Of a stretch of 57,747 nucleotides of DNA, positions 15,531-38,785 are shown in pieces. Positions within the stretch are counted from its first letter, which is position 1. Each line of letters opens with the position of its first letter. The translations under genes were made by a program, and so were the position numbers. The notes beneath the pieces are model-generated. The model was not told the DNA's origin, searched no databases, and was given only the letters and a program-made list of their open reading frames with translations. This DNA is from a virus: positions 1 to 57,747 of the IMG/VR virus record IMGVR_UViG_3300044646_000955; one strand, written 5' to 3'.

Positions 15531-15803
15531 CTAGTCGTCGGGCAGGCTAGCGAGGAGCCCCGCCACCGCCGACGCCGAGGGGACGGCGAGGACTAGGAGC
15601 GCCCAGGGGTTGTCGGCGTGGAACACGGCAAGGACGGCCGGGCCCGGAGCGACCCAGACGGATGAGCACCAGTCGCACCCCACGAGGTAACCGAGCCGGT
15701 CGAAGCGCGCCTGCACCCACTCTCGGGGAGCGTCGAGCAGCCGGTCGGTTGTGACGAGCCGTGTAAGGCGGAAGGTGGCGAGCGCGGCAAGGACCCAGAT
15801 CAT
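15531..15803 (-). CDS. DUF1360-like membrane protein
   Basis: This 90-residue protein begins MIWVLAALATFRLTRLVTTD and has the YLVGCDWCSSVWVA motif, the Cys-x2-Cys-x2-W/V signature of DUF1360 proteins. Predicted membrane segments lie at the N terminus, around the motif and near the C terminus (AVLAVFHADNPWALLVLAVP). It directly follows the large terminase gene (the start overlaps its stop). DUF1360 genes are common in Gram-positive bacteria and their phages; a role in membrane or envelope function at lysis is possible but unproven. Confidence 0.75.
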   Translation of the reverse strand: MIWVLAALATFRLTRLVTTDRLLDAPREWVQARFDRLGYLVGCDWCSSVWVAPGPAVLAVFHADNPWALLVLAVPSASAVAGLLASLPDD

Positions 15804-17203
15804 TAGAGCCTCCGTGATGCGACCGAGCTTACGGAGGCTCGCACCTGCGCGCCCGGGGAGAGGAGAGACGTGACGGCGTGGACGAGGGCGTCAATGCGGT
15901 CCGGGCTCCTCGCGTCAGACGGGACCCAGGTCGTCATCTGCTGCTCAAGGAGGGGCAGGAACCCGACGTGGTGGATCATCCCTCGCTCATACTGCGCCGA
16001 GATCGGTTCGGCGCGCGCCGCCTTGCTCGCTCGAGCGGTTACTTTCTCGATCCGCAGCCCCGGGTCAACGGCGGCGATGGTTGCGCGAGTCATGTCCCCG
16101 CCCTGGTTCGCCTCTACCACGACCCGCTCGGCGCGCCACTTGCGTGCCATGGCGGCGACCTGCTTGCCCCACGCCTCCGGGCGCCCGGCCATTGAGCCAT
16201 CCTCCAGGACGACGGCGTGATCCACCCCGGCTCGCCCATTGACCGGTCCAGCGGCTACCACGATCCCGCACTCGGCCGTCTCCCCCGGCGGGTCAACCGC
16301 CACGACGATTCGCCACGGGCGCCGGTCCGCGCGCACGGGGCGACCGGCAGCCGAGAGGTGAGCGTTGAGCGACTCCCACGGACGGGAGAGGTCGAAGCCG
16401 GAGAGGCGGTGCTCGTTGAGGATCTGGTCCGACCAGAGCGCCCCCTCAACGTCGTCCAGGAACTCGGCGTACAACTCCTGCCGCCCGAGCCTCGTGCCCT
16501 CGTAGCGGGACCGGATGTCCTCGATGAACCCTTGCGCTAGGTACCGCTGGTTGTCGAACGTCGACCCCGTTGTGGACACGGTGTCGGGACGCTCGGCCAA
16601 CTCTCGCAGCCAGGCGAGCGGCTTCGGCGTCCCGGTCACCATCGTCCACGGTCGCTCGCCGAGGCGGAGACCGAGCAGGAGGTTGTCGAGCATCTCCTTG
16701 CCCAGAGCCATAGAGGCGGGCTCGTCTATCCACGCCCATCCGTGCTGAGGGCCGCGAAGGCGCTCGGGTTCCTCTGCCGAGTAGGTAAAGGCGAGGGCGC
16801 CGTTCCTGAACGTGATGCGTCGCTTGGATGGCTCGTAGTCCGGCCGCTGGTCCTCGGGGAACACGGACATAATCCCCGACTCTCCCTCAACGATCACGTC
16901 ACGAACGTCTGCTGCCGTAGGGGCGACTAGAGCGATGCGACCTACCTGCTCGGTCATGAAGCGGCACGCCTCCGCCCCGGCGCGCGTCTTCCCTGCTCCT
17001 CGCCCGGCCCGGAACATCCATACTCGGAAGGACTCCCCCATCCCGGCCGGGATCGCCTGGTTAGGGCGAGCCCACACCTCCCAGAGGGTCAGGAACTCCT
17101 GCGCCTGCGCCGAGGTTAGGGACTCGACGCGAGCGGCGAGGCTCCCGTCGTCACGCCACCGGTCGATCCACGACCGGTTATCAGCCGTCAGCAGGAGCGG
17201 CAT
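15803..17203 (-). CDS. Terminase large subunit
   Basis: This 466-residue protein starts at ATG 17203 within the end of the small-subunit gene. The Walker A motif GRGAGKT is at residues 67-73, and the Walker B-like WAWIDEP is near residue 155. The nuclease domain opens with VVAVDPPGETAECGIVVAAG, whose Asp is the expected first metal ligand of the RNase H-like fold. It packages DNA into the prohead through the portal. The gene lies in one operon with the preQ0 genes. Confidence 0.93.
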   Translation of the reverse strand: MPLLLTADNRSWIDRWRDDGSLAARVESLTSAQAQEFLTLWEVWARPNQAIPAGMGESFRVWMFRAGRGAGKTRAGAEACRFMTEQVGRIALVAPTAADVRDVIVEGESGIMSVFPEDQRPDYEPSKRRITFRNGALAFTYSAEEPERLRGPQHGWAWIDEPASMALGKEMLDNLLLGLRLGERPWTMVTGTPKPLAWLRELAERPDTVSTTGSTFDNQRYLAQGFIEDIRSRYEGTRLGRQELYAEFLDDVEGALWSDQILNEHRLSGFDLSRPWESLNAHLSAAGRPVRADRRPWRIVVAVDPPGETAECGIVVAAGPVNGRAGVDHAVVLEDGSMAGRPEAWGKQVAAMARKWRAERVVVEANQGGDMTRATIAAVDPGLRIEKVTARASKAARAEPISAQYERGMIHHVGFLPLLEQQMTTWVPSDARSPDRIDALVHAVTSLLSPGAQVRASVSSVASRRL

Positions 17204-17615
17204 CGCCGTCCAGCCCGAGCACTTGCCGGAGCGTCTGCCGATGGTCTACCTCCACTTTGATCGGCTCTCCGGCATCGCCTGTGACCATCGTGCGTCGCCC
17301 CCACCGTTGCCAGGCGGTGCGTTCGAGGTACCAAGCCGCCGCCTGCCAGGTGCCATCGTTTGCCGCTTTCTGGATCAGCGCGACGTTACGAATCTCGGCG
17401 GCGCTTCTAGCGCTTTCTACGGCGTCCCTGAACTCCCGATACTTGGTATCGGAGTTTGGATCTTCGGCCATCTCAAGCCATCGGTAAAGCGTGGCCTTGC
17501 CGATGCCTGCGTATTGGGCAGCGATCTCAACGTAGTTTCCTGCTTGAATCGCCTGGACGATTCTATCTTGCGTCTCGGGTGTTAGTTTACTCGGTCTGCC
17601 CACCGGTCTAGCCAT
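17181..17615 (-). CDS. Terminase small subunit
   Basis: This 144-residue protein starts at ATG 17615, 2 bp after the FolE-fusion stop. Residues 1-60 (RPSKLTPETQDRIVQAIQAG, then GIGKATLYRWLEMAEDPNSD) form a helix-turn-helix typical of small terminase subunits. The C-terminal part (VALIQKAANDGTWQAAAWYL, ERTAWQRWGRR) matches the conserved oligomerisation/C-terminal region. It recognises phage DNA for packaging. Immediately upstream of TerL. Confidence 0.9.
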   Translation of the reverse strand: MARPVGRPSKLTPETQDRIVQAIQAGNYVEIAAQYAGIGKATLYRWLEMAEDPNSDTKYREFRDAVESARSAAEIRNVALIQKAANDGTWQAAAWYLERTAWQRWGRRTMVTGDAGEPIKVEVDHRQTLRQVLGLDGDAAPADG

Positions 17616-17619
17616 CTAT

Positions 17620-18516
17620 TCATTCCGCCAGTTTGAGAAACTCATTGCGAGCTTCCAGGTTGGTCCTTAGAACGCCAGTCATGCGGGAGGTAACCATCTC
17701 TGCCGCTTTGCCGATTCCCCGCAAAGACATGCACGTATGATTAGCCTTGATTACAACGCCCACGCCAATAACGTCCAGATGGTCCTCTATCGCCTTAGCG
17801 ATCTGATCGGTTAGGCGCTCCTGCACTTGAAGGCGTCGGGCGTAGGCCTCCACGAGACGAGCGAGCTTCGAGAGTCCGACTACCTTGCCGTCGGGGGCTG
17901 GGACGTACCCCACGGTAGCGGTGCCGATGAACGGCAGCATATGATGCTCGCACAGGCTCGCGAACGGGACGCTACGCAGCACGATCATCTGATCGTGCCC
18001 AACCTCGAACGTCGTGCCGAGGATGCTTGCCGGGTCACGTTCGTAGCCAGACGTAAGCTCCCTTAGAGCCTTGATCACGCGCTTGGGCGTGTCGCGCAAT
18101 CCATCACGAGTTGGGTCCTCCCCGATGTGCTGGATGAGCCGCAGAACTGCGTCCGTGGGGTCACCGTCGTTCTTCTCCCACGGAAACGTCAGCCACCCAT
18201 CGACAAGGGTGGCGTTAGGGGCGAAACCGGCAGGAGCGATCGGCTTCCGGTACAGGGCGTCACAGTGGAAGCCTCGCATCACGTAACGGTTCATGGTGGT
18301 GCCGGTGTCTACGAGATCGTCAACGACGAGCGTCCTGCCCGGCTCTGGCGTGTCGGCAAGGGGAAGGCCAAGGCGTTCAGCGACCAGCACAGCAACGGGA
18401 GCGCCCCCCGTTGGGATCCCGTAGACGCTAGACAGAGCGCTACCGGCGTTGCGTTCCGCCACTCGGTGCGCCTCGTGCTGGATGTCTGCCCAGGAGAGCC
18501 TAATAACGGTGGTCAC
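17620..18516 (-). CDS. folE: Phosphoribosyltransferase - GTP cyclohydrolase I fusion
   Basis: GTG 18516 overlaps the QueE stop by one base, giving 298 residues. Residues 1-115 are a type I phosphoribosyltransferase domain with the PRPP loop [13 protein letters not shown] at 62-74. Residues 120-298 are a complete FolE domain. Its zinc ligands C189, H192 and C262 lie in [10 protein letters not shown] and NHTCMSLRG, and the ERLTDQIA segment is present. FolE converts GTP to dihydroneopterin triphosphate, the first step toward preQ0. The PRT half may salvage or activate a base or nucleotide for the same pathway, but its substrate is unknown. The fusion suggests metabolic coupling. Confidence 0.9.
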
Positions 18517-19271
18517 TAGATTCCTCGTTGATCGTTGAAAGTAAGGGCGTGTAGGCGCACGCAGAGATTCCACCCACGACGGGCGCAGAGCATGAACAGG
18601 TCCGGGAGTGCGGCAAGGATTGAGGAGCGCGTTGTGCCTTGCGGCATCAACCAAACGCGTTCGGGTGGGCAAGCGGCAAGGTCAACAACCTTGTGAACCT
18701 CATCGAGATCGTGTTCCGACTCCACCACGAACTTCAATGATGCCCCGTACTCGACCAACCGACGGAGCACGTCGGGGCGGATGCGACGATCGTAAGGGAT
18801 CCCGGAGTTGGCAAGCTTCGGGGAGCAGTTGATCTGCGGTGGATCATCCCGGAGCGCCTCGGGAAGATCCAGGGTGCCGTTAGTCTCAACCTCAACGTGC
18901 CAGCCCGAGCTTCGCAAGGCGCCCACAAGGGAGGCAAAGGCGTTGGCCTGGACCATCGGCTCGCCTCCGGTAACGATGACCCTACGAACCTCTTGTGGGG
19001 CGTCTCGGTGTAGGCGGTTGAGGATCTCGTCAACTGCGACTCTTGACAGTTCCTTGGTGCGGTCATAAGCGACGCCGTTCTTACCACTCCAGTCCCACGT
19101 ATAAGGAGTGTCGCACCACGAGCAGTCAAGGTTGCAAAGACCGAGGCGCACAAACATCGCCGGGCGACCCGCCGACGGGCCTTCGCCTTGAATCGTTGGT
19201 CCGAACACTTCACTGACAGAAAGCCAGGTCGAGGTCGGCGCAGGGGTTAGCGGTAGACGGTCGCCGTGCAT
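18516..19271 (-). CDS. queE: 7-carboxy-7-deazaguanine synthase (radical SAM)
   Basis: This 251-residue protein has the radical-SAM cluster C46-x3-C50-x2-C53 (CNLDCSWC) after [15 protein letters not shown], the QueE hallmark for substrate/SAM binding. [11 protein letters not shown] supplies the GGEP motif. QueE rearranges 6-carboxytetrahydropterin to 7-carboxy-7-deazaguanine. The start overlaps the QueD gene by 25 bp. It is part of the QueC-QueD-QueE-FolE run that makes preQ0 for DNA modification. Confidence 0.92.
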
Positions 19272-19663
19272 GAGGCGGTCTCCTCCACGTCAACCCGTAT
19301 GACCGCGAGTGGCGCAAGCAGGATCGCTAGGCGCTCAGCAGCCAGGGCGGCAAGATTCTCGGCGGTCGGCTGAACAGGAAGTACGACGACTCCGGGCAAG
19401 CCGATCATCTGTTCAATGAGTGGATCGTCTTCTCCCAGGAGCAGTCGGTGGTCCCACTCGTCGTGGACCTCGGCGAGCGCGGCCTTGACTCGGGCGAAGT
19501 CGATGACCATGCCGTGCTCTGGGCCGTCGTCGGCGATGATGGGGCCTTCCACTTCAACGGTGACTCGGTAGCGATGACCGTGCAGGTGGCGACACTTCGA
19601 CTCGTGTCGGGCTACTCGATGCCCGGCGTCGATGTCTACGTGCCTACGAACGGTCGCTCTCAT
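19247..19663 (-). CDS. queD: 6-carboxy-5,6,7,8-tetrahydropterin synthase
   Basis: This 138-residue protein has DIDAGHRV (zinc His15), CRHLHGHRY (catalytic Cys24, zinc His28 and His30), MVIDFARVK and PTAENLAALA, all diagnostic of the QueD/PTPS family. It converts dihydroneopterin triphosphate from FolE to carboxytetrahydropterin. The start overlaps the QueC stop by 4 bp (ATGA). Confidence 0.92.
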   Translation of the reverse strand: MRATVRRHVDIDAGHRVARHESKCRHLHGHRYRVTVEVEGPIIADDGPEHGMVIDFARVKAALAEVHDEWDHRLLLGEDDPLIEQMIGLPGVVVLPVQPTAENLAALAAERLAILLAPLAVIRVDVEETASCTATVYR

Positions 19664-20355
19664 GCCCCGACCTTCGTTCGCCAGAACTCGGCGTCCACGT
19701 AGTCGGTCGGATCAACAACACCGGCAAGGTGGAACGCTTCTGCTCGCTCTACACACGTCCCGCACCTACCGCAGTGGCGGTCGCCTCCCTTGTAGCAACT
19801 CCACGTCTCAGTCCAGGGGACTCTAAGTCGGTCCCCCTCGCCTGCGATCCACGCCTTATCCCGATGGACGAACGGAGCGATCACGCCTCTGAAGTCCTTG
19901 CCGAACGTCACGTTGCCGATGAGGCAGGCGGCGTTGACGGACGCTACGAACTCCGGTCGGCAGTCGGGGTAGATGAAGTGATCCCCGCCGTGGACTCCAG
20001 TTGCGACGTACTGCGCTCCTTCGGACACGGCGACCGAGCAGGCGATCGACAGCATCATCATGTTCCGGTTCGGGACCACGGTCGCTCGCATCGTCTGCTC
20101 CGCATAGTGGCCGTCCGGCACGTCGAGATCCGAGGTGAGCGAGGACGAGGCGATAAGTTTCGTGATGCTCGATAGGTCGGCGACCGAGTGTCTCGCTCCG
20201 AGGCGCTTCGCGCAGCGAGCCGCGTAGTCAAGTTCCTTGCGGTGCCGTTGCCCGTAGTCGACGGAAAGGAGATGAAGGCCGAAGTCCTGCTCTGCTAGGT
20301 GGTGGGCCAGCGTAACGCTGTCCATACCGCCCGACACGATCGCAACTACTCGCAC
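19660..20355 (-). CDS. queC: 7-cyano-7-deazaguanine (preQ0) synthase
   Basis: GTG 20355 lies one base after the DpdA stop, with AGGAAA upstream; a longer in-frame start (ATG 20385) would overlap DpdA and is less likely. Near the N terminus VSGGMDS is the ATP pyrophosphatase loop. Near the C terminus the Cys cluster (SCYKGG, HCGRCGTC) is the QueC zinc site. It makes preQ0 from carboxydeazaguanine with ATP and ammonia. About 231 residues, normal for the family. Confidence 0.92.
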   Translation of the reverse strand: MRVVAIVSGGMDSVTLAHHLAEQDFGLHLLSVDYGQRHRKELDYAARCAKRLGARHSVADLSSITKLIASSSLTSDLDVPDGHYAEQTMRATVVPNRNMMMLSIACSVAVSEGAQYVATGVHGGDHFIYPDCRPEFVASVNAACLIGNVTFGKDFRGVIAPFVHRDKAWIAGEGDRLRVPWTETWSCYKGGDRHCGRCGTCVERAEAFHLAGVVDPTDYVDAEFWRTKVGA

Positions 20356-20356
20356 G

Positions 20357-21265
20357 TTATGTTTCCTGTCTCTTCGCAACGACATCTACGAGGTTGTCAA
20401 TACTTCCTTCAGCTAGGAAGATATGCGGAACGGAAGCAGCATCGATTCCCTCTTTCGCCGATCCGAGGGCCAGGTAAAGATGAGTGCCATGCGAGCTATC
20501 GGCGCTGCTCGATCGGAGGGTTATCTGCCCGTGGAGATGCCGCAGAAAGCCTTCGTAGTTGATCCACGCCTTTGCCGACATCTTTACCGCAATACGCCTG
20601 TTATAGAGAGAGCGATCGAGAAGCTGTTCCGGCTGCGCGCCATGCTCGCGAATAAGTTGAGCGTGTTGGTAGACGCTAGTGCGATCCCATAGCGTCACGC
20701 CGACGAACTTCTTTGATGCTGCATCCCATAACGCTATATGCCCATAACGAAAGGCTGCCCCCCAGGAGGATGAATCCACTGAGTACCAGGGAAAGTTTCG
20801 GAGGTATTCGTGTCTAGTCTGTCCGAAACCGTGAAACTTCGCATCGTAACGATCCGCGATTCTGAAACAACGCACTAACCACGGCCCGAGGTTTGCCGTT
20901 CGGTATGGGACCATCCCGCCTAGGGCAATATAAGGATATTCCTCGCACAATGCCTCAAGAGTCTTCCATGAGGACCCGACATGAAACACGGGCAAGGGGT
21001 TGAGCCCAAGTCGTTCAAGGCTACGCTGATTACGAGACGTTGCGGCTTCGTCACCGATAACGTCGAGGTTGGAATAAGGTGCCAGCACTCCCCGCCACTT
21101 GCGAATCCACTCTGCGTATTCTTCTAGAATAATTGTTGATCCCTGCGATGCTGCGCTAAAGGCCCCTGAATCACCAAAGACTTTTACGCCGAGAGATGCT
21201 GCCGTAGTGATCTTAGATAGATCGCCCTTACGAAAGTAATGATACGAGGTAAGGAACTTATACAT
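20357..21265 (-). CDS. dpdA: DNA 7-deazaguanine transglycosylase-like protein DpdA
   Basis: This 302-residue protein is of the tRNA-guanine transglycosylase superfamily, phage DpdA type. FGDSGAFSAA at residues 30-39 carries the nucleophile-like Asp. SNLDVIGD (65-72), HVGSSW (95-100), IALGGMVPY (113-121) and FHGFGQT (144-150) follow in the family order. Family members exchange guanine in DNA for preQ0 or a derivative. The gene is visibly more AT-rich than its neighbours (20.4-21.5 kb), which suggests recent transfer. It overlaps the ParB-like gene by 8 bp and abuts queC. Confidence 0.9.
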   Translation of the reverse strand: MYKFLTSYHYFRKGDLSKITTAASLGVKVFGDSGAFSAASQGSTIILEEYAEWIRKWRGVLAPYSNLDVIGDEAATSRNQRSLERLGLNPLPVFHVGSSWKTLEALCEEYPYIALGGMVPYRTANLGPWLVRCFRIADRYDAKFHGFGQTRHEYLRNFPWYSVDSSSWGAAFRYGHIALWDAASKKFVGVTLWDRTSVYQHAQLIREHGAQPEQLLDRSLYNRRIAVKMSAKAWINYEGFLRHLHGQITLRSSSADSSHGTHLYLALGSAKEGIDAASVPHIFLAEGSIDNLVDVVAKRQET

Positions 21266-21884
21266 CCATGAGACGATCTAGGATGTGGTTTACGAACGCC
21301 TCGTCGTTATCCCCACTCGCATCTCCATCGATGCTCTTTCGATAGTTTGACCAGCGTTGTTCCACTTCGCGACGTACTAGCAACTTGATCACTGCTAGTT
21401 TCTCGCTGGGCATATCTTCATCTGATTCCCCGTAAACGCCAGCAAGAGCATCGAGTGAAGGAACTTCATATCGTTTGATGAGATCCGCTATGAAGCTCTC
21501 TTCGTAACCCGTTGTGTTCAATAGATCCGGGTCCACGGCGACGGTCTGTAGCAACTCGATTAGTTCGATATCGTCGTATCCACCCAGATCGCCCGTGCGG
21601 TTATCAGCCAGCGCGAACGCCTTAGCGGTCAGTTCGTCGTCGTCGGTCCACACTACGGCGATGTGGGACCAGCCGAGCCGCTGCGCCGCCTTGAGCTGAT
21701 GGTTGCCCGCGATGACGGTGCCGTCGCGCTGGGCCACGATGGGCTTCCGCTGCCCGAACCGCTCGTAGCTGCGCTTCACCGCCTCAACGTCACCCCGCCT
21801 CGGATTCCCGGGGAAGGGGCTGAGCAGGTCGAGCGGTGTCGCTAGGGGGCGAAGATCCTCGGCGATGTAACTAAGGTCGCTCAT
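21258..21884 (-). CDS. ParB-domain protein beside dpdA
   Basis: This 208-residue protein starts at ATG 21884. Residues 8-100 are a ParB/Sulfiredoxin-like domain: LATPLDLLSPFPGNPRRGDV, then VKRSYERFGQRKPIVAQRDG and VIAGNHQLKAAQRLGWSHIA. The C-terminal half is AT-rich and helical with no clear motif. ParB-like proteins recur beside phage base-modification genes, and a ParB-like DpdB works with DpdA in bacterial dpd clusters. A role as a modification cofactor or NTPase is therefore plausible. A partition role is less likely because no ParA is present. Confidence 0.82.
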   Translation of the reverse strand: MSDLSYIAEDLRPLATPLDLLSPFPGNPRRGDVEAVKRSYERFGQRKPIVAQRDGTVIAGNHQLKAAQRLGWSHIAVVWTDDDELTAKAFALADNRTGDLGGYDDIELIELLQTVAVDPDLLNTTGYEESFIADLIKRYEVPSLDALAGVYGESDEDMPSEKLAVIKLLVRREVEQRWSNYRKSIDGDASGDNDEAFVNHILDRLMDV

Positions 21885-21898
21885 CGTTCGCCAGCTTA

Positions 21899-22084
21899 CT
21901 ACTCGGGTCGCATTGCACAGGCGCAGAACGCGCACCGGCCGTTCGACTGGAGGCTATGTGAGCAGTTCCGATCGGCCGTGCCGGGGGCATGGGTGGGGCA
22001 GTACCAGCGGCCGTCTACGAAGAGCCGCACTGATCGCTCGGACTTGGCTCGGCATCCGCCCTTGACGGCGCATCCGTGGTTCAT
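21899..22084 (-). CDS. Small Cys-rich protein (61 aa)
   Basis: ATG 22084 overlaps the dioxygenase stop (ATGA). The product has CAVKGGCRAKSERSV, WYCPTHAP and CSHSLQSNGRCAFCACAM, giving eight cysteines plus histidines in a pattern compatible with two zinc sites. It is co-translated with the TET-like gene. It might target the modification enzymes to DNA, but this is only inferred from position. Confidence 0.72.
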   Translation of the reverse strand: MNHGCAVKGGCRAKSERSVRLFVDGRWYCPTHAPGTADRNCSHSLQSNGRCAFCACAMRPE

Positions 22085-22704
22085 CGCACGAACCGCTTCG
22101 GGTAGGCGACGAGGGTAAGCCGGTAGCCGTCGAGCCCGAGCGACACCGGGGAGACCCCGTGCCACGTTGTGAGCCCCGGAAAGAAGGCTACGTCTCCGTC
22201 GTCCATCGGGAGCCAGGCGTCAAGCTCGGGGAGGTGGAGGTGCCCGCCGATGGCGTCTCGGCGCATGGCGAGGACTGCCGTCCAGCCCGGGGCGTTGGAG
22301 GTGTCCCGGTGGTAGTTGAGCGTCACGTCCCGATTCGCCACGAAGCCCGTCCAGCCCGTGCCCGGCATGAGCTTGGGGCGGGTAGCGGGGTGTGTCGTCT
22401 CGATCGTTGCGCGAGCCTCGTCCGGCAGCATGCGCGAGAACCGGGCCCATGCCTCGGCTACGTAGGCGCGTAGGGCCTCCCCCCTTGCGCCTCCGGCGTC
22501 GATGATCTCCCGACCGTGCTCCCATCTCTCCCGGCCGTTGCGCCCGCCTTGGGCGATCAAGGGGGCTAGAGCGGCGGCATGCCGTGCGAACCCCCCGAGA
22601 TAGGCGGCGCAGGGCCTGCCGCCCGCATCCCGTAGAATGTCGTCAGGGATCACGAACTGGTCGGCAGCGACCGGCGGGAGGACTCTTGTCCTGCCCTGGA
22701 TCAC
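22081..22704 (-). CDS. TET/JBP-like 2-oxoglutarate-Fe(II) dioxygenase
   Basis: GTG 22704 overlaps the previous stop (GTGA). The 207-residue product ends in a double-stranded beta-helix domain. LNYHRDTSN carries the iron ligands H132 and D134, then come GGHLHLPE, the DGDVAFFPGLTTWHGVSPVS stretch with H182, and YRLTLVAYPKR with the 2-oxoglutarate Arg195. The HGVSPV...R-L-V-Y arrangement is that of the TET/JBP branch, whose phage members hydroxylate 5-methylpyrimidines in DNA. Location in the dpdA operon supports a DNA-modification role. The precise base is unknown. Prolyl-hydroxylase-like alternatives cannot be excluded by eye. Confidence 0.72.
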   Translation of the reverse strand: MIQGRTRVLPPVAADQFVIPDDILRDAGGRPCAAYLGGFARHAAALAPLIAQGGRNGRERWEHGREIIDAGGARGEALRAYVAEAWARFSRMLPDEARATIETTHPATRPKLMPGTGWTGFVANRDVTLNYHRDTSNAPGWTAVLAMRRDAIGGHLHLPELDAWLPMDDGDVAFFPGLTTWHGVSPVSLGLDGYRLTLVAYPKRFVR

Positions 22705-23240
22705 GAGTCCCCCTCGAGCGTGAAGACCGCCCAGCCGAGGGCGTCGGATACGTCGATGAGACTCAAGTCGTCGCGCTCGGCCTTGGTCGCTTGCACGAGG
22801 AGTTTCTTGGGCCCGGCGAAGAGCTTCGCGTCCACGCCTATCTGCCGCCATCGCTGCGTCCCGTCGTCGTCAAGGAAGGGCTCAACGAGGAGGGACGCTA
22901 GAACCATGCGCTTGCAGTCCAAGGCTACGGCCTGGATGCCCGTGCGGATTCGCGGGTCCTCCTCGGCTAGCGCTTCGAGCGCTTGAGTCCGATCTAGATG
23001 CGCCGCGCTGAACCACACCTCGTCACACCTTCCGATGAAGGCAGGCGCTGCGGAGTGGACCATCGCCGAGAGGATCCTCTGCTTCGCCGGTTCACTCGCC
23101 TCGCTCTTGGCGGTCAGCGGCTCGGCGACCAGGCTCGCTCCGCTAGGGGCGACTGCCCACAGCTTCGGCTTGAGGGTGCCAAAGATCTCGTAGCAGTCCA
23201 TCGCCGCTTGAGCGTGGCTGATGAGAACGTCGGTGATCAC
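22701..23240 (-). CDS. Unknown protein of the modification operon (179 aa)
   Basis: GTG 23240 overlaps the previous stop (GTGA). The product (VITDVLISHAQAAMDCYEIF...) is a mixed alpha/beta protein. Notable segments are AVAPSGASLVAEPLTA, FIGRCDEVWFSAAHLDRTQA and VEPFLDDDGTQRWRQIGVDA. I do not recognise the family. It is translationally coupled to the TET-like gene, so a supporting role there is plausible. Confidence 0.75.
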   Translation of the reverse strand: MITDVLISHAQAAMDCYEIFGTLKPKLWAVAPSGASLVAEPLTAKSEASEPAKQRILSAMVHSAAPAFIGRCDEVWFSAAHLDRTQALEALAEEDPRIRTGIQAVALDCKRMVLASLLVEPFLDDDGTQRWRQIGVDAKLFAGPKKLLVQATKAERDDLSLIDVSDALGWAVFTLEGDS

Positions 23241-23431
23241 TCTGGCACCGGGTACACGTCGCGCACGTCCACTGACAGATAGCGCCCGTTCGCAAGGAGA
23301 ACGCGGGCCTTGCCGTTGCGCTTCCTCATCCCGGCGCCCGGCCATGAGACCAGGGTAGCGAACCGACCGTCATAGAGTTGCACTCGGCCCCTACTGGCTG
23401 CGTGCTGAATCATCGCTGTGGTGGTGTTCAT
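23237..23431 (-). CDS. First gene of the modification-packaging operon (64 aa)
   Basis: ATG 23431 is 7 nt after a -10 box, so it is predicted leaderless. MNTTTAMIQHAASRGRVQLY is followed by a beta-rich segment (FATLVSWPGAGMRKRNGKAR, LLANGRYLSVDVRDV), compatible with a small SH3- or KOW-like barrel. The stop overlaps the next start (GTGA). No family assigned. Confidence 0.76.
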   Translation of the reverse strand: MNTTTAMIQHAASRGRVQLYDGRFATLVSWPGAGMRKRNGKARVLLANGRYLSVDVRDVYPVPE

Positions 23432-30281: not shown

Positions 30282-30724
30282 CGCCGGGCCCGCTTCGCGC
30301 GATACATGGCAGCATCTGCCTGGCGCACGGCGTCGTCAGCCTCGCCGATCCCGAGTCCGACCGATGCCCGCACGCCCCACCGGCCGTCGAGCGCTGCGGC
30401 GAGGCGGTGCGCGGCGTCGGTGGCGTCGGCCGTGTCGGCGAGGAGGACAAGGATCTCGTCGCCGCCCCATCGGCTCACGAGGTCATCGGCGCGCACGGTC
30501 GCCCGGATCACTTCGGCGGCGAGCAGGAGCACGGCGTCACCGGCGGCGTGCCCTAGCGTGTCGTTGATCGCCTTGAGCCCGTCAAGGTCGGCGAGGATGA
30601 CGGCGCACGTTCCGGCGGAGCGGCGCCGCTCGAGCAGGATCTCGCCGACCGGCCGGACGTGCAGCCGGGTCGTCGGACAGGTCGTGAGCCGATGCAGGTC
30701 GGCAGGTGACAGGTCGAGGGTCAT
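30278..30724 (-). CDS. Stand-alone GGDEF diguanylate cyclase
   Basis: This 148-residue product is one GGDEF domain. The metal/substrate signature ADLDGLKAINDTLGHAAGD at residues 45-63 matches the canonical D-x-D-x-h-K-x-x-N-D-x-x-G-H form. RWGGDEI at 85-91 is the active site, with Ile for the usual Phe. VRASVGLGIGEA and ADAAMYRAKRA complete the domain. GGDEF enzymes make cyclic di-GMP from GTP. No sensor domain or recognisable I-site is obvious. ATG 30724 overlaps the pentapeptide-repeat gene stop by 4 bp, so it is co-translated. A diguanylate cyclase in a phage is unusual. Confidence 0.88.
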   Translation of the reverse strand: MTLDLSPADLHRLTTCPTTRLHVRPVGEILLERRRSAGTCAVILADLDGLKAINDTLGHAAGDAVLLLAAEVIRATVRADDLVSRWGGDEILVLLADTADATDAAHRLAAALDGRWGVRASVGLGIGEADDAVRQADAAMYRAKRARR

Positions 30725-31284
30725 CGGATCACCTCGGTCATGTCGGCCCCGGTGAGGTTGGCCCCGATGAGGTTGGCCCCGGTGAGGTTGGCCTCGATCA
30801 GGTCGGCGCCGGTGAGGTTGGCGCCGGTGAGGTTGGCGCCGGTGAGGTCGGCGCCGGTGAGGTTGGCCTTGGTGAGGTCGGCGCCGGTGAGGTCGGCGCC
30901 GGTGAGGTTGGCCCCGGTGAGGTTTGCCTCGGTGAGGTTTGCCCCGGTGAGGTCGGCCTCGATCAGGTTGGCCCTGGTGAGGTCGGCCTCGGCGAGCTTG
31001 GCCCCGGTGAGGTCGGCCCAGTTCATGTCGGCCCCGGTGAGGTCGGCGCCGGTGAGGCGGACGTCACGAAGGTCGGCGTCACAAAGGTCGGCGTCGAAGA
31101 GATTGGCCCTGGTGAGGTTGGCACCGATCAGCTTGGCCCCGGTGAGGTTGGCGCCGACGAGGTCGGCGTGCGTCAGGTCGGCGCCGCGCAGGTCGGCGCC
31201 TCGCAGGTCAGCGCGCTTGCCCGTCCCCGGGACGGCGAGCCAGCGAGCGTGCTCGGCGAGGATATTCGGCAGGTCGAGGGTCAT
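30721..31284 (-). CDS. Pentapeptide-repeat protein A
   Basis: This 187-residue product starts at ATG 31284, overlapping the previous stop (ATGA). N-terminal helix [20 protein letters not shown] is followed by about 30 tandem A(D/N)L(T/R)G-type pentapeptides. These form a right-handed quadrilateral beta-helix; some family members mimic B-DNA and inhibit gyrase (MfpA/Qnr). Last of three tandem paralogues before the GGDEF gene. Confidence 0.9.
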
Positions 31285-31754
31285 CGGATCACCTCGTTCA
31301 TGTCGGGCCCGGTGAGGTTGGCCCCGGTCATGTCGGCCCCGGTGAGCTTGGCGCCACGAAGGTCGGCGTCGAAGAGATCGGCCCCGGTCAGGTCGGCGCC
31401 GATCAGGTTGGCCTCGGTCAGATCGGCCCCGGTGAGGTCGGCCCCGATCAGCTTGGCCCCGGTCAGGTCGGCCCCGGTCAGGTCGGCGCCGGTGAGGTAG
31501 GCCCCGGTGAGATCGGCGCCGATCAGATTGGCCCTGCTGAGGTTGGCCCCGATCAGGTTGGCGCCGATCAGGTTGGCGCCGATCAGGTTGGCCTCGGTCA
31601 GATCGGCCTCGGTCAGATCGGCCCTGGTGAGCTTGGCTGCGACGAGGTCGGCGTGCGTCAGGTCGGCGCCGCGCAGGTCGGCTCGCTTGCCCGTCCCCGG
31701 ATCGGTGAGCCACTGAGCGTGCTCGGCCAGGATGGTCGGCAGGTTGATAGTCAT
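31281..31754 (-). CDS. Pentapeptide-repeat protein B
   Basis: This 157-residue product starts at ATG 31754 ([20 protein letters not shown]), with ATGA overlap on both sides. About 23 A(D/N)L repeats follow the shared N-terminal helix. Paralogue of A and C, with almost identical nucleotide repeats. Confidence 0.9.
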
Positions 31755-32239
31755 CGGATCACCTCGGTCATGTCGGCCCCGGCGAGCTTGGCCCCGATCA
31801 GGTTGGCCCTGGTGAGCTTCGCGCCGGTGAGGTCGGCCCCGATCAGGTTGGCACCGCTCAAGTTGGCCTCGGTGAGGTTGGCCCCGATCAGGTTGGCCCC
31901 GATCAGGTTGGCCCAATTCAGGCGGGCGCCACGAAGGTCGGCCCTGGTGAGCTTGGCGCCGGTGAGGTTGGCGCCGATCAAGTTGGCCCCGATCAGGTTG
32001 GCCCCGATCAGGTTGGCCCCGATCAGGTTGGCCCCGCTGAGGTTGACCCAATTCAGGCGGGCGCCACGAAGGTCGGCCCTGGTGAGGTCGGCGCCGGTGA
32101 GGTTGGCGTCACGAAGGTCGGCGTCGGTGAGGTTGGCCCCGATCAGGTTGGCGCCGCGCAGGTCGGCGCGCCGGCCGGTCGCCGTATCGGCGAGCCACTG
32201 AGCGTGCTCGGCCAGGATGGTCGGCAGGTCGATGGTCAT
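31751..32239 (-). CDS. Pentapeptide-repeat protein C
   Basis: This 162-residue product starts at ATG 32239 with AAAGG upstream; it is the first gene of the A-C/GGDEF operon. [20 protein letters not shown] is followed by about 25 pentapeptides ([17 protein letters not shown]). An in-frame upstream start (ATG 32281, MRPIRCHNTTKG) is possible but would cover the ribosome-binding site. Confidence 0.88.
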
Positions 32240-32291
32240 GTGTGTGCCTTTCGTGGTGTTGTGGCATCTTATCGGCCGCATGAACAGGAAG

Positions 32292-32546
32292 TCAAGCCGG
32301 GCGAGCGGCGTCGATGACCGGAGCCATCGAGAACTTCCCGAGCGGGAAGGCGATCTCGCGAGGACCGTTGAAGTCGCTGACAGTGATGCCCACGAGCCGC
32401 GATTCGCCGGTAAGGACGTCCCGGATCAACATCCTCTTAGCCGTACGAGCGACGACCACGAAGCTCCACCGGTAATCACCCCGGCCGGTGTCGTAGGTGG
32501 TTCCGACCTTGAAGGTGGCGGTGATGGCGGCGGTGTTCGTGCTCAT
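32292..32546 (-). CDS. Leaderless beta-rich protein, unknown (84 aa)
   Basis: ATG 32546 is 6 nt after TATACT. MSTNTAAITATFKVGTTYDT is followed by WSFVVVARTAKRMLIRDVLT and SRLVGITVSDFNG. Regular strands suggest a small beta barrel. It sits between two pentapeptide-repeat operons. No family recognised. Confidence 0.76.
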   Translation of the reverse strand: MSTNTAAITATFKVGTTYDTGRGDYRWSFVVVARTAKRMLIRDVLTGESRLVGITVSDFNGPREIAFPLGKFSMAPVIDAARPA

Positions 32547-32552
32547 GTCCTT

Positions 32553-32580
32553 AGTATACATGATCCCGGAACAGTGTCAA
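32553..32580 (-). promoter_or_regulatory. Cassette promoter (class 1) for gene at 32546
   Basis: TTGACA (32580-32575), spacer with GTTCCGGGATCATG, TATACT (32558-32553), ATG 6 nt downstream. Confidence 0.82.
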
Positions 32581-32613
32581 GCGAGAGCAGAACTTTTCTC
32601 GGAAGGTCGAAGA

Positions 32614-32973
32614 TCAGATCGCACCCGTTACCCCGGTTACGGTAGCCATGTTGACGTTGGCTCCCCTTGAGTCGATGCCGGTTAGATCTGCGTCCCGCAG
32701 GTCGGCCCATCCGAGGTTGGCCCACCGCAGATTCGCCCCCGTTAGGTCCGCCCCGTTGAGATAAGCGCCCCGCAGGTCTGCATCGGCGAGGTTCGCCCCG
32801 GCCAGGTTGGCCCCGATGAGCTTGGCACTGATCAGATTGGCCAGCTTGAGGTTGGCCCCTCGGAGATCGGCCCCGCTCAAGTCGGCATTGCTCAAGTCGG
32901 CCCGCTTGCCCGTTGCCGGATTGGCGAGCCAGCGAGCGTGCTCCGCAAGGATGGTCGGCAGGTCGATCGTCAT
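32614..32973 (-). CDS. Pentapeptide-repeat protein D
   Basis: This 119-residue product starts at ATG 32973, overlapping protein E's stop. [20 protein letters not shown] precedes about 15 pentapeptides ([20 protein letters not shown]). The C terminus RGANVNMATVTGVTGAI is unique. Confidence 0.88.
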   Translation of the reverse strand: MTIDLPTILAEHARWLANPATGKRADLSNADLSGADLRGANLKLANLISAKLIGANLAGANLADADLRGAYLNGADLTGANLRWANLGWADLRDADLTGIDSRGANVNMATVTGVTGAI

Positions 32974-33254
32974 CGGATCACCCCGGTCATGTCGGCCCCG
33001 GCAAGGTCGGCGCCGGTGAGGCGGGCGCCGCATAGCTGGGCGCGCCGGAGGTCGGCGCCACGAAGGTCGGCGTCACGGAGGTCGGCGTCGAAGAGGATAG
33101 CGTCACGAAGGCGAGCGCCACGAAGATCGGCGCCTCGCAGGTCGGCGCCTCGCAGGTCGGCGCGCTTGCCGGTCGTGGGATCGGCGAGCCAGCGAGCGTG
33201 CCCGGCGAGAATGATTGAGAGGTCGTTGGCGGCGGTGTTGATCGTCGTGCTCAT
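32970..33254 (-). CDS. Pentapeptide-repeat protein E (leaderless)
   Basis: This 94-residue product starts at ATG 33254, 6 nt after TATAAT. MSTTINTAANDLSIILAGHA joins the cassette N terminus to the shared helix, followed by about 10 repeats. First gene of the two-gene E-D operon. It shows directly how the promoter/start cassette can be fused to a different coding sequence. Confidence 0.88.
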   Translation of the reverse strand: MSTTINTAANDLSIILAGHARWLADPTTGKRADLRGADLRGADLRGARLRDAILFDADLRDADLRGADLRRAQLCGARLTGADLAGADMTGVIR

Positions 33255-35685: not shown

Positions 35686-35925
35686 CTAGGGCTTGGCGGC
35701 GTCGCGAACGATGGCGGTCCGTTGCTCCGCGAGCATGGCCTTGCGGTCGGCCTCCATCGCGGCAAGCGTGCGCTCCAGATCCTTTGCGGACTGGATCTGA
35801 GAGGCGAGGGTCGCCTGCGTCTCGGCGATCTCGTCCAGCACGGCGTCGTACTCGCGACGCTTGACCTCGAGCGGCGAGAGAGGCTTGCGGCCTCGGCGGG
35901 TGGTCGTGGTCGTGTCGTTGCTCAT
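35686..35925 (-). CDS. Small coiled-coil protein with AT-hook-like motif (79 aa)
   Basis: ATG 35925 overlaps the translocase stop by 4 bp. MSNDTTTTTRRGRKPLSPLE contains an RGRKP AT-hook-like core, followed by an about 55-residue coiled coil (VKRREYDAVLDEIAETQATL...). Layout recalls small nucleoid-associated proteins. No named family. Confidence 0.72.
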   Translation of the reverse strand: MSNDTTTTTRRGRKPLSPLEVKRREYDAVLDEIAETQATLASQIQSAKDLERTLAAMEADRKAMLAEQRTAIVRDAAKP

Positions 35926-37247
35926 GGTTGCTGCTCTCCTGGTTGGGTCCGGCGCCAGCCGGACGGTGTCTGGACTGCGAGCCCGTCGTCGGCCAGCGCG
36001 CGCAGCACCGGCAGGACGGTCGTGGCTCCTCGCCCGCAGGCGTCGGCAATCGCTCGCTTGCCTTGCGGGTGATCGGTGAGCGCAGCCAGGACTAGCGCCC
36101 TGGTTGCGGCTCGACGGTCGGCGTCATCGACGGCAGGGGTCGGACCGGCCGTGAGCTGGGAGGCGACCGGGTCGGCGGCCAATCGCCGACCCTCGGCACC
36201 GACCCGCGCCGGGTAGGCCGTAGCGGCGCCGTCGGGGAGGTGCCACATGCGCGCCCGGAGCCACTGACTCGACCCCATCGGCTGCAAGGCGAGCATCCCG
36301 GCATGCTCCGGGAAGTCGGCCGGCGACCACCGATGGCGGCTCGGGAGACCCGGATCGGCGGCCATGAATCCCCACTCACTCGGCGACCCGATGCGCATGC
36401 ACACGCGTTGCATTGCCTGCGATCGTGGCGCGCCCGGAACGAACTCATTCGTCCCTCGTTGCGCGCCGATCACGAGCGAAATGCCAGCCGATCGCCACAG
36501 TGAGAACGCCCGCTGCCACGTCTTGTCGGCCTCGCTGCGGCTCACGTTGCGCGCATGAGCGAGGTCGTCCCGGGCGATCGCAAACTCGTCGACGATGACG
36601 ACGATCGGTCGCCGTTGCGCGATCGGTTGCCCGGCTCGCTGGTCGGCGATCGCGCTCAAGTCGGCCATCATTGCGGCGAGGTCGTCCGGTGTCGTCACGA
36701 GTCGATCGAGCGCAAGCCCGCCGTAGTCCTCGCCGCGTTTACCGGTCTCGGCTACCCACACGTCGCCGTCACTGACGCCACCGAGCGCAGCGGCGACGTA
36801 GCGCAGAAGCGTTGACTTGCCGGAGCCGGTCGAACCCACGAGGAGCGTGTGCCCGCCGGTCCAGCGCAGCACGGCATCGCTGCCGTCCTCGCATCGGCCG
36901 ATCACGGTGCCCTGGTGGACGCTGGAACGCCGCTCGAGCGCATCGAGCCCGCCGGTGATCGGCTTGCCGAGCGGATCGACGACCCGTTGCTCGATGACGA
37001 GTACGCCCGGATGCGCGCCGTGCCGCACCCGCACGTCGTGCGCGCCCACCGAGCAACCGAGGCGCGCGCCAAGGTAGGCGGCGATGCTTGCCTCGTCGGC
37101 GTGCGCGACCTGCCCGAGCGGGGCCACCGCAACCCATCGACGCGCCTCCGGCGTGCGTCGGAACTCGGATAAGGCGAGCACGTCGAGCCCTCGGACGTGC
37201 GCCTGCATGTCGCTCCATGCGGCCCGCTGGCGCGCCGTCAAAGTCAT
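35922..37247 (-). CDS. FtsK/SpoIIIE (TraB-like) DNA translocase
   Basis: This 441-residue product starts at ATG 37247. Walker A GSTGSGKST is at residues 138-146, and Walker B IVVIVDEFA near 216-224. After the motor domain (VIGAQRGTNEFVPG; AMQRVCMRIGSPSEWGFMAA), a C-terminal winged helix follows (RALVLAALTDHPQGKRAIAD). Overall layout is that of the short FtsK-like translocases of actinobacterial plasmids and integrative elements (TraB/TraSA). It could move or segregate DNA in the host. Presence in a phage may indicate exchange with such elements. Confidence 0.85.
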   Translation of the reverse strand: MTLTARQRAAWSDMQAHVRGLDVLALSEFRRTPEARRWVAVAPLGQVAHADEASIAAYLGARLGCSVGAHDVRVRHGAHPGVLVIEQRVVDPLGKPITGGLDALERRSSVHQGTVIGRCEDGSDAVLRWTGGHTLLVGSTGSGKSTLLRYVAAALGGVSDGDVWVAETGKRGEDYGGLALDRLVTTPDDLAAMMADLSAIADQRAGQPIAQRRPIVVIVDEFAIARDDLAHARNVSRSEADKTWQRAFSLWRSAGISLVIGAQRGTNEFVPGAPRSQAMQRVCMRIGSPSEWGFMAADPGLPSRHRWSPADFPEHAGMLALQPMGSSQWLRARMWHLPDGAATAYPARVGAEGRRLAADPVASQLTAGPTPAVDDADRRAATRALVLAALTDHPQGKRAIADACGRGATTVLPVLRALADDGLAVQTPSGWRRTQPGEQQP

Positions 37248-37441
37248 TGCTGCGCCGCCTCCACGCCATTGAAGAACTGCGCCGCCTCCACGCCGTCGAA
37301 GAACCCCTGATGGTACGGACACCAGTTTCGGCGTTGTTGCTTGACGTGGCACCCGCATGACCACCATTCCCAGCCGTTGCCTCCCGGTTCGATCGTGAAG
37401 TGCCTGCGAACGTCTGCGATCGTCAGCTCGAACGGGCTCAC
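37244..37441 (-). CDS. Small Cys/His protein upstream of translocase (65 aa)
   Basis: GTG 37441 overlaps the previous stop; the TGA overlaps the translocase start. VSPFELTIADVRRHFTIEPG, then WEWWSCGCHVKQQRRNWCPY and HQGFFDGVEAAQ. The CGCH...C..H set may bind zinc. A direct 8-residue duplication (FDGVEAAQ, FNGVEAAQ) ends the protein, encoded by a 27-bp repeat at about 37250-37305. Confidence 0.7.
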   Translation of the reverse strand: MSPFELTIADVRRHFTIEPGGNGWEWWSCGCHVKQQRRNWCPYHQGFFDGVEAAQFFNGVEAAQQ

Positions 37442-37872
37442 GACCTCGGCCCTCCGATGTTGATCGAGGCGACGTTGATGACGACCTGGCGGCGTCGATG
37501 TGCGCCGCTGCGACCGTCGACGACGGCGACCGGCTCGTCGCACCATGCGCACAACTGCTCGCCGGTTGCGGTGCGGATCGGCGCCCGGCCGACTCCTCGG
37601 CAGGCGTCACGCTCACGTCGAGCGCGTCGGCTCACGCCGGTCGACGGCGTCCCACCGTCAACGGGTGCGGCATCGGCAATCGGCGTTGCGCTCGGCCCGC
37701 CGAGGGTCGGCGTGGCGTCGCGCCGGGCGAGCCGGTCGAGCGCAGCGCGCACGCGCCCGGTGACCGATCCGCCCGGCAGGCGAGGGGTGATCTCGGATGA
37801 CAACTCCCACGGGGCGAGGGAGAGTGGAGACGTTGCGATGAGGTCGGCCGGGTCGGGTGCAGGCCAGGTCAT
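37438..37872 (-). CDS. Unknown protein with CAWCDE zinc motif (144 aa)
   Basis: ATG 37872 overlaps the Mom-like stop (ATGA). The N-terminal half is Pro/Ala/Arg-rich (TGRVRAALDRLARRDATPTL). Residues about 85-120 (RRARRERDACRGVGRAPIRT...LCAWCDEPVAVVDGRSGAHR) resemble a small zinc-binding domain. Function unknown. Confidence 0.72.
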   Translation of the reverse strand: MTWPAPDPADLIATSPLSLAPWELSSEITPRLPGGSVTGRVRAALDRLARRDATPTLGGPSATPIADAAPVDGGTPSTGVSRRARRERDACRGVGRAPIRTATGEQLCAWCDEPVAVVDGRSGAHRRRQVVINVASINIGGPRS

Positions 37873-38387
37873 CGCCACGCCTCCGCGTAGCTCGGGCATC
37901 CTCGTGCAACGAGCGCCTGGTCTTTGACGCTCAACAACTCAGCCCGCCGGTCGTCGCGTCGAAGCGCGCAGACCCATCGATCTTTGGCGGCTTGCGGCTT
38001 GTCGTTGCGCCATGCGCCGTTGCCGGTTGGCGGCGTCCGAAGGCGGTGCCACGTCGGCGCCCATTGCCAGTTACACGCACGATAGAGCGCGCCGGTGTGT
38101 CCGGCGGACGGGTCGCTGTAGGACACGATCGTGGTGACGTCTAGCCGGTCTCGCAAGAGCGCCAGACGAACTCGGCGCCATTGCTGCGAGCCGCCGTTGC
38201 GTTGACCAACCAGACACCAGCGGACGAGTTCTAGCCACGTGCCGTCCTGCGGGAGCCTTCGTGAGGTCGGCTTGGCGAGGACCAGCACGCCGAATTCGTC
38301 GCTCCACGCAATGCCTCGGCCAGTCGCGCCGAGGTAGTGGTACGCATCGAGGAAGGGAGCCACGGTCCTCGGCGGCGTCCAGGTCAT
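37869..38387 (-). CDS. Mom-like adenine modification protein
   Basis: ATG 38387 overlaps the previous stop (ATGA), giving 172 residues. The layout follows phage Mu Mom-type acetyltransferase-fold proteins: FGVLVLAKPTSRR, then WLELVRWCLVGQRNGGSQQW, and the diagnostic TTIVSYSDPSAGHTGALYRA (S89-Y-S-D92 and G96-H-T-G99). Mom converts adenine in DNA to an N6-carbamoylmethyl form that blocks restriction. Length is a little shorter than Mu Mom. A generic GNAT is the main alternative. Confidence 0.65.
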   Translation of the reverse strand: MTWTPPRTVAPFLDAYHYLGATGRGIAWSDEFGVLVLAKPTSRRLPQDGTWLELVRWCLVGQRNGGSQQWRRVRLALLRDRLDVTTIVSYSDPSAGHTGALYRACNWQWAPTWHRLRTPPTGNGAWRNDKPQAAKDRWVCALRRDDRRAELLSVKDQALVARGCPSYAEAWR

Positions 38388-38785
38388 CGCCACGCCTCGG
38401 CAGCGTCGGCGGCGTCGTGGCGCGCATCACGCTCGGCTCGGCGGGTGGCACGCCGGTCGATTCTCGGCGCCCGTTGCGCGCCGGGCGTCCGGTCGCCGAC
38501 CCGCCAGGCGATGACGGCGAGCGCTGCGGCGAGCAACACGAGGTGCCATCCGACGCCGATGAGGTGCGCCGCACCGGTTGCGATCGAGGCGCATCCGGCG
38601 AGCTGCCAGCGGTCCCGGCGTGCCCGGTCGGCGATCTCGACGGCGGTGCCGGTGACGGCGAGTCCGGCGGCGACCTGCACGGCTGCGATCCACGCGTGCG
38701 GCTGGATCAGTCCCCAGGCGAGGAGGAAGACGGACCAGGTCCACGGCCACCGGTCGGCGACGAAGAGGCGACGGAGTCGGGTCAC
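38384..38785 (-). CDS. Leaderless membrane protein (133 aa)
   Basis: GTG 38785 is 7 nt after TAAGAT, so a leaderless start is likely. VTRLRRLFVADRWPWTWSVF begins the protein. Predicted transmembrane helices lie at about 15-50 and 70-100 (ATGAAHLIGVGWHLVLLAAA). The C-terminal tail is highly basic (RRATRRAERDARHDAADAAE). First gene of the Mom-like/translocase operon. Resembles small Spd-type membrane proteins of actinobacterial plasmids only in general character. Confidence 0.72.
   Translation of the reverse strand: MTRLRRLFVADRWPWTWSVFLLAWGLIQPHAWIAAVQVAAGLAVTGTAVEIADRARRDRWQLAGCASIATGAAHLIGVGWHLVLLAAALAVIAWRVGDRTPGAQRAPRIDRRATRRAERDARHDAADAAEAWR

Follow-up and report, generated by a model that had tools for sequence, protein, structure and literature searches.

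Phages use many chemistries to disguise their DNA, and a gene for a ParB-domain protein recurs beside the enzymes that do so; a 2025 study calls the function of this gene unknown (PMC12783734). In phages of the Rosebush type, such as Rosebushvirus Ares and Rhodococcus phage Finch, genes follow the order ParB-DpdA-QueC-QueD-QueE-FolE, with neither an amidotransferase nor QueF, and about 28% of the guanines of Rosebush DNA, with the same gene set, are 2'-deoxy-7-cyano-7-deazaguanosine (dPreQ0) (PMC6884629). In phages of the Nigel type (Mycobacterium phage Nigel, Gordonia phage CaiB, Arthrobacter phage Kharcho), it is a TET/JBP enzyme that adjoins ParB and the terminase, usually with an amino-acid:DNA transferase (ADDT), a kinase or a glycosyltransferase and with no DpdA or Que genes. 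In the bacterial Dpd system, DpdA is paired with DpdB, a ParB-superfamily protein used in the insertion of 7-cyano-7-deazaguanine (preQ0) (PMC12839542, PMC6392294). Here, we analysed a terminase-linked operon of a tailed phage (IMG/VR virus record IMGVR_UViG_3300044646_000955, hereafter the phage record; the window is this whole record of 57,747 bp) that carries both a DpdA pathway and a TET/JBP-type dioxygenase. We consider it likely that this is a DNA-base-modification operon of recombinant origin, located in a swap slot between the ParB gene and the terminase genes TerS-TerL, which would lead to the alteration of two bases and use ParB as a modular adaptor.

A preQ0 pathway and a TET/JBP-type dioxygenase share one operon

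In the transcription sense, the operon encodes a 214-aa protein, the TET-like dioxygenase, a 61-aa Cys-rich protein, ParB, DpdA, QueC, QueD, QueE, a phosphoribosyltransferase (PRT)-FolE fusion, TerS and TerL (Table 1), and all genes between 17181 and 23431 lie on the minus strand with open, intact reading frames. A sequence-only reading of this DNA had listed the genes from the dioxygenase to the terminase in this order, which stands, except that its FolE is in fact the PRT fusion, starting at a GTG codon, and that the overlaps of 1-25 bp that it described reach 29 bp: successive junctions overlap by 4 (ATGA/GTGA), 8, 29, 4, 25 and 1 bp, with gaps of 14 bp before ParB and 4 bp before TerS. Family calls came from Pfam, PHROG and NCBIfam profile scans of the open reading frames (ORFs), and the encoded proteins carry the catalytic or metal-binding motifs of QueC (SGGMDS and Cx8CxxCxxC), QueD (CxxxHGH), QueE (CxxxCxxC), FolE (CEHH), DpdA (DSGA/VDSSSW) and the dioxygenase (HRD...H...R).

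DpdA, FolE, QueD, QueE and QueC, the genes that characterise a phage preQ0-DNA operon (Hutinet group 2, Rosebush type), are all present, and the exact order ParB-DpdA-QueC-QueD-QueE-FolE is found in 29 of the loci surveyed below. As in the phage record, the cluster of Ares lies directly before the terminase. The Rosebush type differs in that it has neither the TET nor the Cys-rich gene, in the sequence of DpdA (33-39% identity to the DpdA of cultured phages) and, for Ares, in that FolE is not fused to a PRT. The bacterial DpdA model matches the DpdA of the phage record weakly (2e-5) and, unlike in the bacterial Dpd system, no DpdC or restriction genes were recognised in the phage record, although a ParB-superfamily domain adjoins DpdA in both, as expected for a DpdB-like partner.

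Since no QueF or glutamine amidotransferase domain was found among the ORFs scanned with Pfam and PHROGs (ArcS was not searched by its own model and the record may be incomplete), dPreQ0 is the base that would be expected, as the sequence-only reading had proposed. The match in gene set and order with Rosebush, whose DNA carries dPreQ0, makes it the best-supported guanine product of the operon; 2'-deoxy-7-amido-7-deazaguanosine (dADG) or another derivative, made through an unrecognised gene, is possible. The PRT-FolE fusion, QueD, QueE and QueC would convert GTP into preQ0, and DpdA, with the neighbouring ParB as its probable guide, would then swap guanine for preQ0 at chosen sites to give dPreQ0. 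The purine-type PRT domain (residues ~1-118) precedes the FolE domain (residues ~119-298) in the fusion, which is found in 24 of 87 DpdA loci and has near-full-length matches in 37 phage records, with a PRT in none of the TET loci; a simple idea is that this putative salvage domain returns the guanine released by DpdA towards GTP.

The proposal that the gene upstream of the Cys-rich one encodes a TET/JBP-like dioxygenase was borne out by a structure-based search with its AlphaFold2 model (pLDDT 78.6), in which the 21 best PDB matches were all TET-type (CMD1 at 6e-10, CcTet and NgTET1) and prolyl hydroxylases ranked after them (8e-6). A profile search with the protein also matched NgTet and TET2, and H132, D134, H182 and R195 (HxD, distal H and 2-oxoglutarate-binding R of a double-stranded beta-helix) are invariant across 31 homologous sequences. 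By motifs and structure, this enzyme is a TET/JBP relative, predicted to oxidise 5-methylpyrimidines in DNA. As in the Nigel type, it adjoins ParB and the terminase; the Nigel type differs by the order ParB-TET, by a TET-type C-half of ParB and by a longer TET, the enzyme of the phage record being without the C-terminal extension of canonical relatives.

Nigel-type TET/JBP genes (L002:776-1744 and many Bclasvirinae gene 2 records; L numbers denote surveyed loci) are labelled 'queuine tRNA-ribosyltransferase' in RefSeq and PHROG 6059, a label that apparently stems from their position beside ParB. We rejected the idea that phrog_6059 represents a DpdA part fused to TET: it is the misannotated TET gene of Nigel-type phages.

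ADDT and the DNA kinases of thymine hypermodification act on 5-hydroxymethyluracil in DNA. A relative of ADDT, of a DNA kinase or of a PALP gene is present at 54 of the 93 TET loci and at none of the 87 DpdA loci. L198, which shares the terminase lineage of the phage record (relatives with TerL 63-77% identical), has the order ParB-TET-ADDT-PALP-kinase-terminase. No C5-methyltransferase was detected in the phage record or in 7 cultured TET phages, using a model that detected one in 10 of 14 control genomes. Given the lack of an encoded C5-methyltransferase and the thymine-hypermodification genes beside many relatives, thymine is probably the substrate rather than cytosine: the enzyme would hydroxylate it to 5-hydroxymethyluracil in the same DNA that receives preQ0, with no further tailoring enzyme recognised, and an oxidised pyrimidine is likely in the phage DNA. 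The alternative that it acts on host-made 5-methylcytosine, giving 5-hydroxymethylcytosine, is rather unlikely: the characterised TET-fold matches are 5-methylcytosine dioxygenases, a few TET loci have C5-methyltransferase-like motifs and TET-linked glycosyltransferase genes are also compatible with 5-hydroxymethylcytosine, but we judged this role less likely after the C5-methyltransferase searches, and ADDT and DNA-kinase genes accompany TET in many relatives, three of them with the same terminase.

The TET gene might also be a relict with little effect now, its tailoring genes having been replaced by the preQ0 cassette, so that the virion would carry dPreQ0 only. No ADDT, kinase, PALP or glycosyltransferase was found in the phage record, the enzyme lacks the C-terminal extension of canonical relatives and the ParB C-half is no longer TET-type, all of which would fit. 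We nevertheless regard a relict as improbable, since the frame is intact with 4-bp translational overlaps and high GC content at third codon positions (GC3), the HxD-H-R residues are kept and a 65%-identical TET persists in the relative L193 beside another cassette.

We surveyed 174 loci (87 TET and 87 DpdA, with some redundancy) of IMG/VR records and cultured phages, taken from the best 80 of 528 and the best 80 of 184 relatives, many of the records being fragments; the collections may leave out records very close to the phage record. Within these loci, TET and DpdA occur together in the phage record only. Whole-record checks found TET in 0 of 50 DpdA records and DpdA in 0 of 50 TET records, and both genes in 0 of 7 and 0 of 7 further records, mostly from cultured phages, in which the same models did match their own class; no record was common to the cultured-phage matches for TET and DpdA, among the matches listed. 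Judged by gene content, TET and DpdA are normally alternatives. We found no earlier report of a TET and a 7-deazaguanine system paired in one phage operon in the literature and collections searched, and this pairing and the modular ParB/slot architecture described below appear to be new, the component genes being of known kinds. This operon could give rise to doubly modified DNA.

A terminase-side slot holds different modification systems in relatives

Comparison within the terminase lineage was informative for the location of the operon. L193 (IMGVR_UViG_3300037502_001048), whose identity to the phage record is 77% for TerL, 83% for TerS, 80% for the ParB N-half and 65% for TET, has TET-ParB followed by an ABC-ATPase/GNAT gene in the slot and no DpdA or Que genes. 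L204 and L082/L211 have the order ParB-DpdA-QueC-QueD-QueE-PRT/FolE-TerS-TerL but no TET, and L082 carries an extra DUF6884 gene. The slot is occupied by a ParB-DUF6610 fusion with Que genes in L209, by ParB-TET-ADDT-PALP-kinase in L198, L208 and L218, by ParB-methyltransferase fusions in L196/L197 and L215 (one of them accompanied by a hydroxylase and a PALP enzyme), by ParB-Mom in L210 and by a methyltransferase alone in L205 and L206. Since relatives with the same terminase hold differing modification systems there, the region between ParB and TerS seems to be a place where one such system replaces another, and the gene cluster as a whole suggests a swap slot for DNA-disguising cassettes, with a putative anti-restriction role, built around a ParB with an enzyme-matched tail. 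The adjacency to TerS-TerL noted by the sequence-only reading is conserved; the coupling of modification to packaging that it drew from this adjacency is hypothetical. In relatives, the site acts as an exchange slot for differing modification cassettes, for which location alone can account.

Some occupants of such slots deserve mention in their own right. The ABC-ATPase and GNAT fusion of L193 (L193:1143-2258; phrog_11143, function not assigned) is a candidate DNA-modifying enzyme because it sits in the modification slot. The DUF6884 gene of L082 (L082:10457-11053) lies between QueC and QueD of the preQ0 operon, and its product is possibly a tailoring or insertion factor. DUF6610 genes were seen in L209:4150-5490, L221:1-1299 and L220:5566-6726, and DUF6610 is fused to ParB within the preQ0 operons of L209 and of Mycobacterium phage Funsized. 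In HVTV-1, gp69 is a DUF6610 protein encoded directly downstream of FolE in the preQ0 cluster, and about 30% of the guanines of this phage, which has no known DpdA, are 2'-deoxy-7-aminomethyl-7-deazaguanosine (dPreQ1) (PMC6884629), which makes DUF6610 a candidate for the missing transglycosylase by gene context. We tried DUF6610 as a remote DpdA, but hhalign found no similarity to DpdA, and it stays a lead by context.

The ParB gene is a mosaic with a C-half of the DpdA-linked type

The sequence-only reading had left ParB as a bystander; our comparison suggests otherwise. ParB is encoded directly upstream in 57 of 63 TET loci and 45 of 75 DpdA loci with room for it. The AlphaFold2 model of the protein from the phage record has a pLDDT of 85.7, and its N-domain matches CTP-binding ParB/Noc structures. 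We split 47 TET-linked and 41 DpdA-linked non-redundant ParBs at the end of this domain (residues 1-114 and 115-208 in the phage record) and counted matching pairs at E 1e-4. For the N-halves, 73% of DpdA-TET pairs match across classes, whereas for the C-halves 2% of cross-class pairs match, versus 67% and 78% within classes. C-half profiles trained on half of the set assigned the held-out sequences correctly (20/20 and 23/23), and the C-half of the phage record scored 50.9 bits with the DpdA-type and 8.4 bits with the TET-type profile; that of L193 fits neither.

The N-half of the phage record is 80% identical to that of L193, 69-76% to those of six other lineage members and 42% to those of three ParB-TET-ADDT relatives, while the C-halves of these proteins differ. 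At the boundary of the two halves (~21545), GC content steps from 64.3% (GC3 0.81) to 48.8% (GC3 0.50) within parB, followed by 52% in DpdA and 62% in QueC. The best matches of the ParB C-half and DpdA (L016, L029 and L025) lie outside the terminase lineage, those of QueC, QueD and PRT-FolE (L209, L082 and L204) within it. Because the N-half is lineage-type, the C-half is DpdA-type, GC drops at the join and the best matches of the C-half and DpdA are outside the lineage, the simplest history is that parB is a recombinant and that a DpdA-type ParB tail entered together with DpdA. The recipient lineage would already have had TET-ParB in the manner of L193 and related preQ0 genes like those of L082 and L204, so that the phage would alter two bases where nearly all of its relatives alter one.

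An assembly chimera, joining TET and the ParB N-half of one phage to the ParB C-half, DpdA and Que genes of another, would also produce a shift of both homology and GC within parB in a metagenomic contig with no close relative. We hold this to be very improbable, since the reading frame continues through the parB join, which falls at a domain boundary, TerS-TerL are again of the TET-side lineage and the Que genes match this same lineage, so that a chimera would need at least two in-frame joins.

These data suggest that ParB is a modular partner of the modifying enzyme. Its common, nucleotide-binding N-domain would clamp DNA and its partner-specific C-domain would hold DpdA, by analogy with the bacterial Dpd system, in which DpdB is thought to do so. 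The existence of natural ParB fusions to methyltransferases and DUF6610 fits such an adaptor mechanism. ParB-like genes are common in phages and the TerS-TerL slot accepts many cassettes, and the ParB gene could instead serve as a nuclease or in partition or packaging, without any part in modification, at a recombination hot spot where cassettes collect because insertion is tolerated. This is unlikely: the C-halves segregate by partner enzyme while the N-halves do not, fusions join ParB to methyltransferases (L196, L215) and, within a preQ0 operon, to DUF6610 (L209), and the bacterial relative DpdB is used in preQ0 insertion. The common N-domain, the enzyme-class-matched C-domain and a natural in-frame recombinant lead to the testable hypothesis that ParB serves to dock the modifying enzyme and to target it. 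It is possible, if doubtful, that phage ParB-like proteins are a general swappable adaptor, with a shared nucleotide-gated DNA-clamp domain and an enzyme-specific C-terminal docking domain delivering DpdA, TET, a methyltransferase or perhaps Mom, and that the phage so modifies G, T and A with this and other systems.

Several observations weigh against the adaptor and two-base interpretation. The phage is uncultured and known from a metagenomic contig. The Tet_JBP (PF12851) score of the dioxygenase is below Pfam's cut-off. Single-sequence matches of the ParB C-half are weak (26 bits at best). Many DpdA loci (e.g., with the order QueD-QueE-FolE-QueC-DpdA) have no ParB upstream, so that ParB is not a universal requirement. 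In a set of 39 DpdA loci, the ParB C-half score follows DpdA no more closely than QueC or QueE; we dropped this non-specific correlation as evidence of partnership, and the evidence for co-inheritance of the ParB C-half and DpdA therefore consists of the classifier, the GC step and the loci that match best. Finally, the ParB downstream of TET has a C-half that is not of the TET type and so does not account for the targeting of TET; given this position and the missing C-terminal extension, TET may work without targeting or together with the Cys-rich protein.

A Mom-like gene, gene layout and possible host

Outside the operon, the phage record encodes a Mom-like protein that the sequence-only reading had missed. 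It scores 31.7-32.7 bits with PF25680 (cut-off 27.1), keeps the residues common to phage Mu Mom (ELxR, SxxD and GxxGxxYxAxN) and has relatives 60-72% identical in other contigs. This gene is probably a third modification system, with predicted adenine carbamoylmethylation; with an active protein, the modified bases of the phage would be G, T (or methylated C) and A. It lies near an FtsK/SpoIIIE-like ATPase gene (35922-37616). On the short contig L032 (36-4799), ParB-DpdA-QueD-QueE-FolE-QueC is directly followed by a Mom-like gene.

Table 1. Features of the phage record discussed in the text
Feature	Coordinates	Strand	Remarks
214-aa protein	22701..23345	-	First gene; 4-bp overlap with TET
TET/JBP-type Fe(II)/2-oxoglutarate dioxygenase	22081..22704	-	207 aa, GTG start; PF12851 2.4e-6, phrog_6059 4e-21
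Cys-rich protein	21899..22084	-	61 aa, best start ATG 22084; between TET and ParB
ParB-like protein	21258..21884	-	208 aa from ATG 21884; phrog_723 4.3e-40
DpdA, DNA-guanine transglycosylase	20357..21265	-	302 aa; phrog_887 2.5e-53; GC 52%
QueC (preQ0 synthase)	19660..20385	-	PF06508 3.6e-56; TIGR00364 above cut-off; without amidotransferase domain
QueD	19247..19663	-	PF01242 3.1e-31; TIGR03367 above cut-off
QueE	18516..19271	-	phrog_2076 1.1e-59; PF04055 2.6e-12
PRT-FolE fusion	17620..18516	-	298 aa, GTG start 18516; PF01227 1.5e-66, PF00156 1.2e-4, xanthine PRT model 1.2e-6
TerS	17181..17615	-	Position; helix-turn-helix matches; 83% identity to L193 TerS
TerL	15803..17203	-	PF03237 9.8e-21, PF17289 1.7e-9
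Mom-like DNA (adenine) modification protein	37869..38393	-	Outside operon; PF25680 7.6e-8, phrog_1384 1.1e-9

Megablast of the operon against phages gave no match, and since protein scans specific to this record revealed almost no close relatives, alignments were used for comparison. The 214-aa protein has no Pfam, PHROG or NCBIfam match and has weak homologues in L198, L204, L208, L210, L215 and L218, encoded upstream of ParB in some relatives; a homologue search with the 61-aa Cys-rich protein found none.

The record (GC 65.9%) is that of an uncultured tailed phage whose portal is closest to those of actinobacteriophages. With the nearest portals in Gordonia and Streptomyces phages and a TerL identity of 40-45% to various phages, an actinobacterial host is plausible. 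The two ends of the record (144-671 and 52800-57728, minus strand) seem to encode pieces of a single long, repetitive protein of the virion type, whose frame has a small break where they meet, which suggests a nearly complete, circularly permuted genome. A run of several ORFs made of pentapeptide repeats lies at 30721-33033 on the minus strand.

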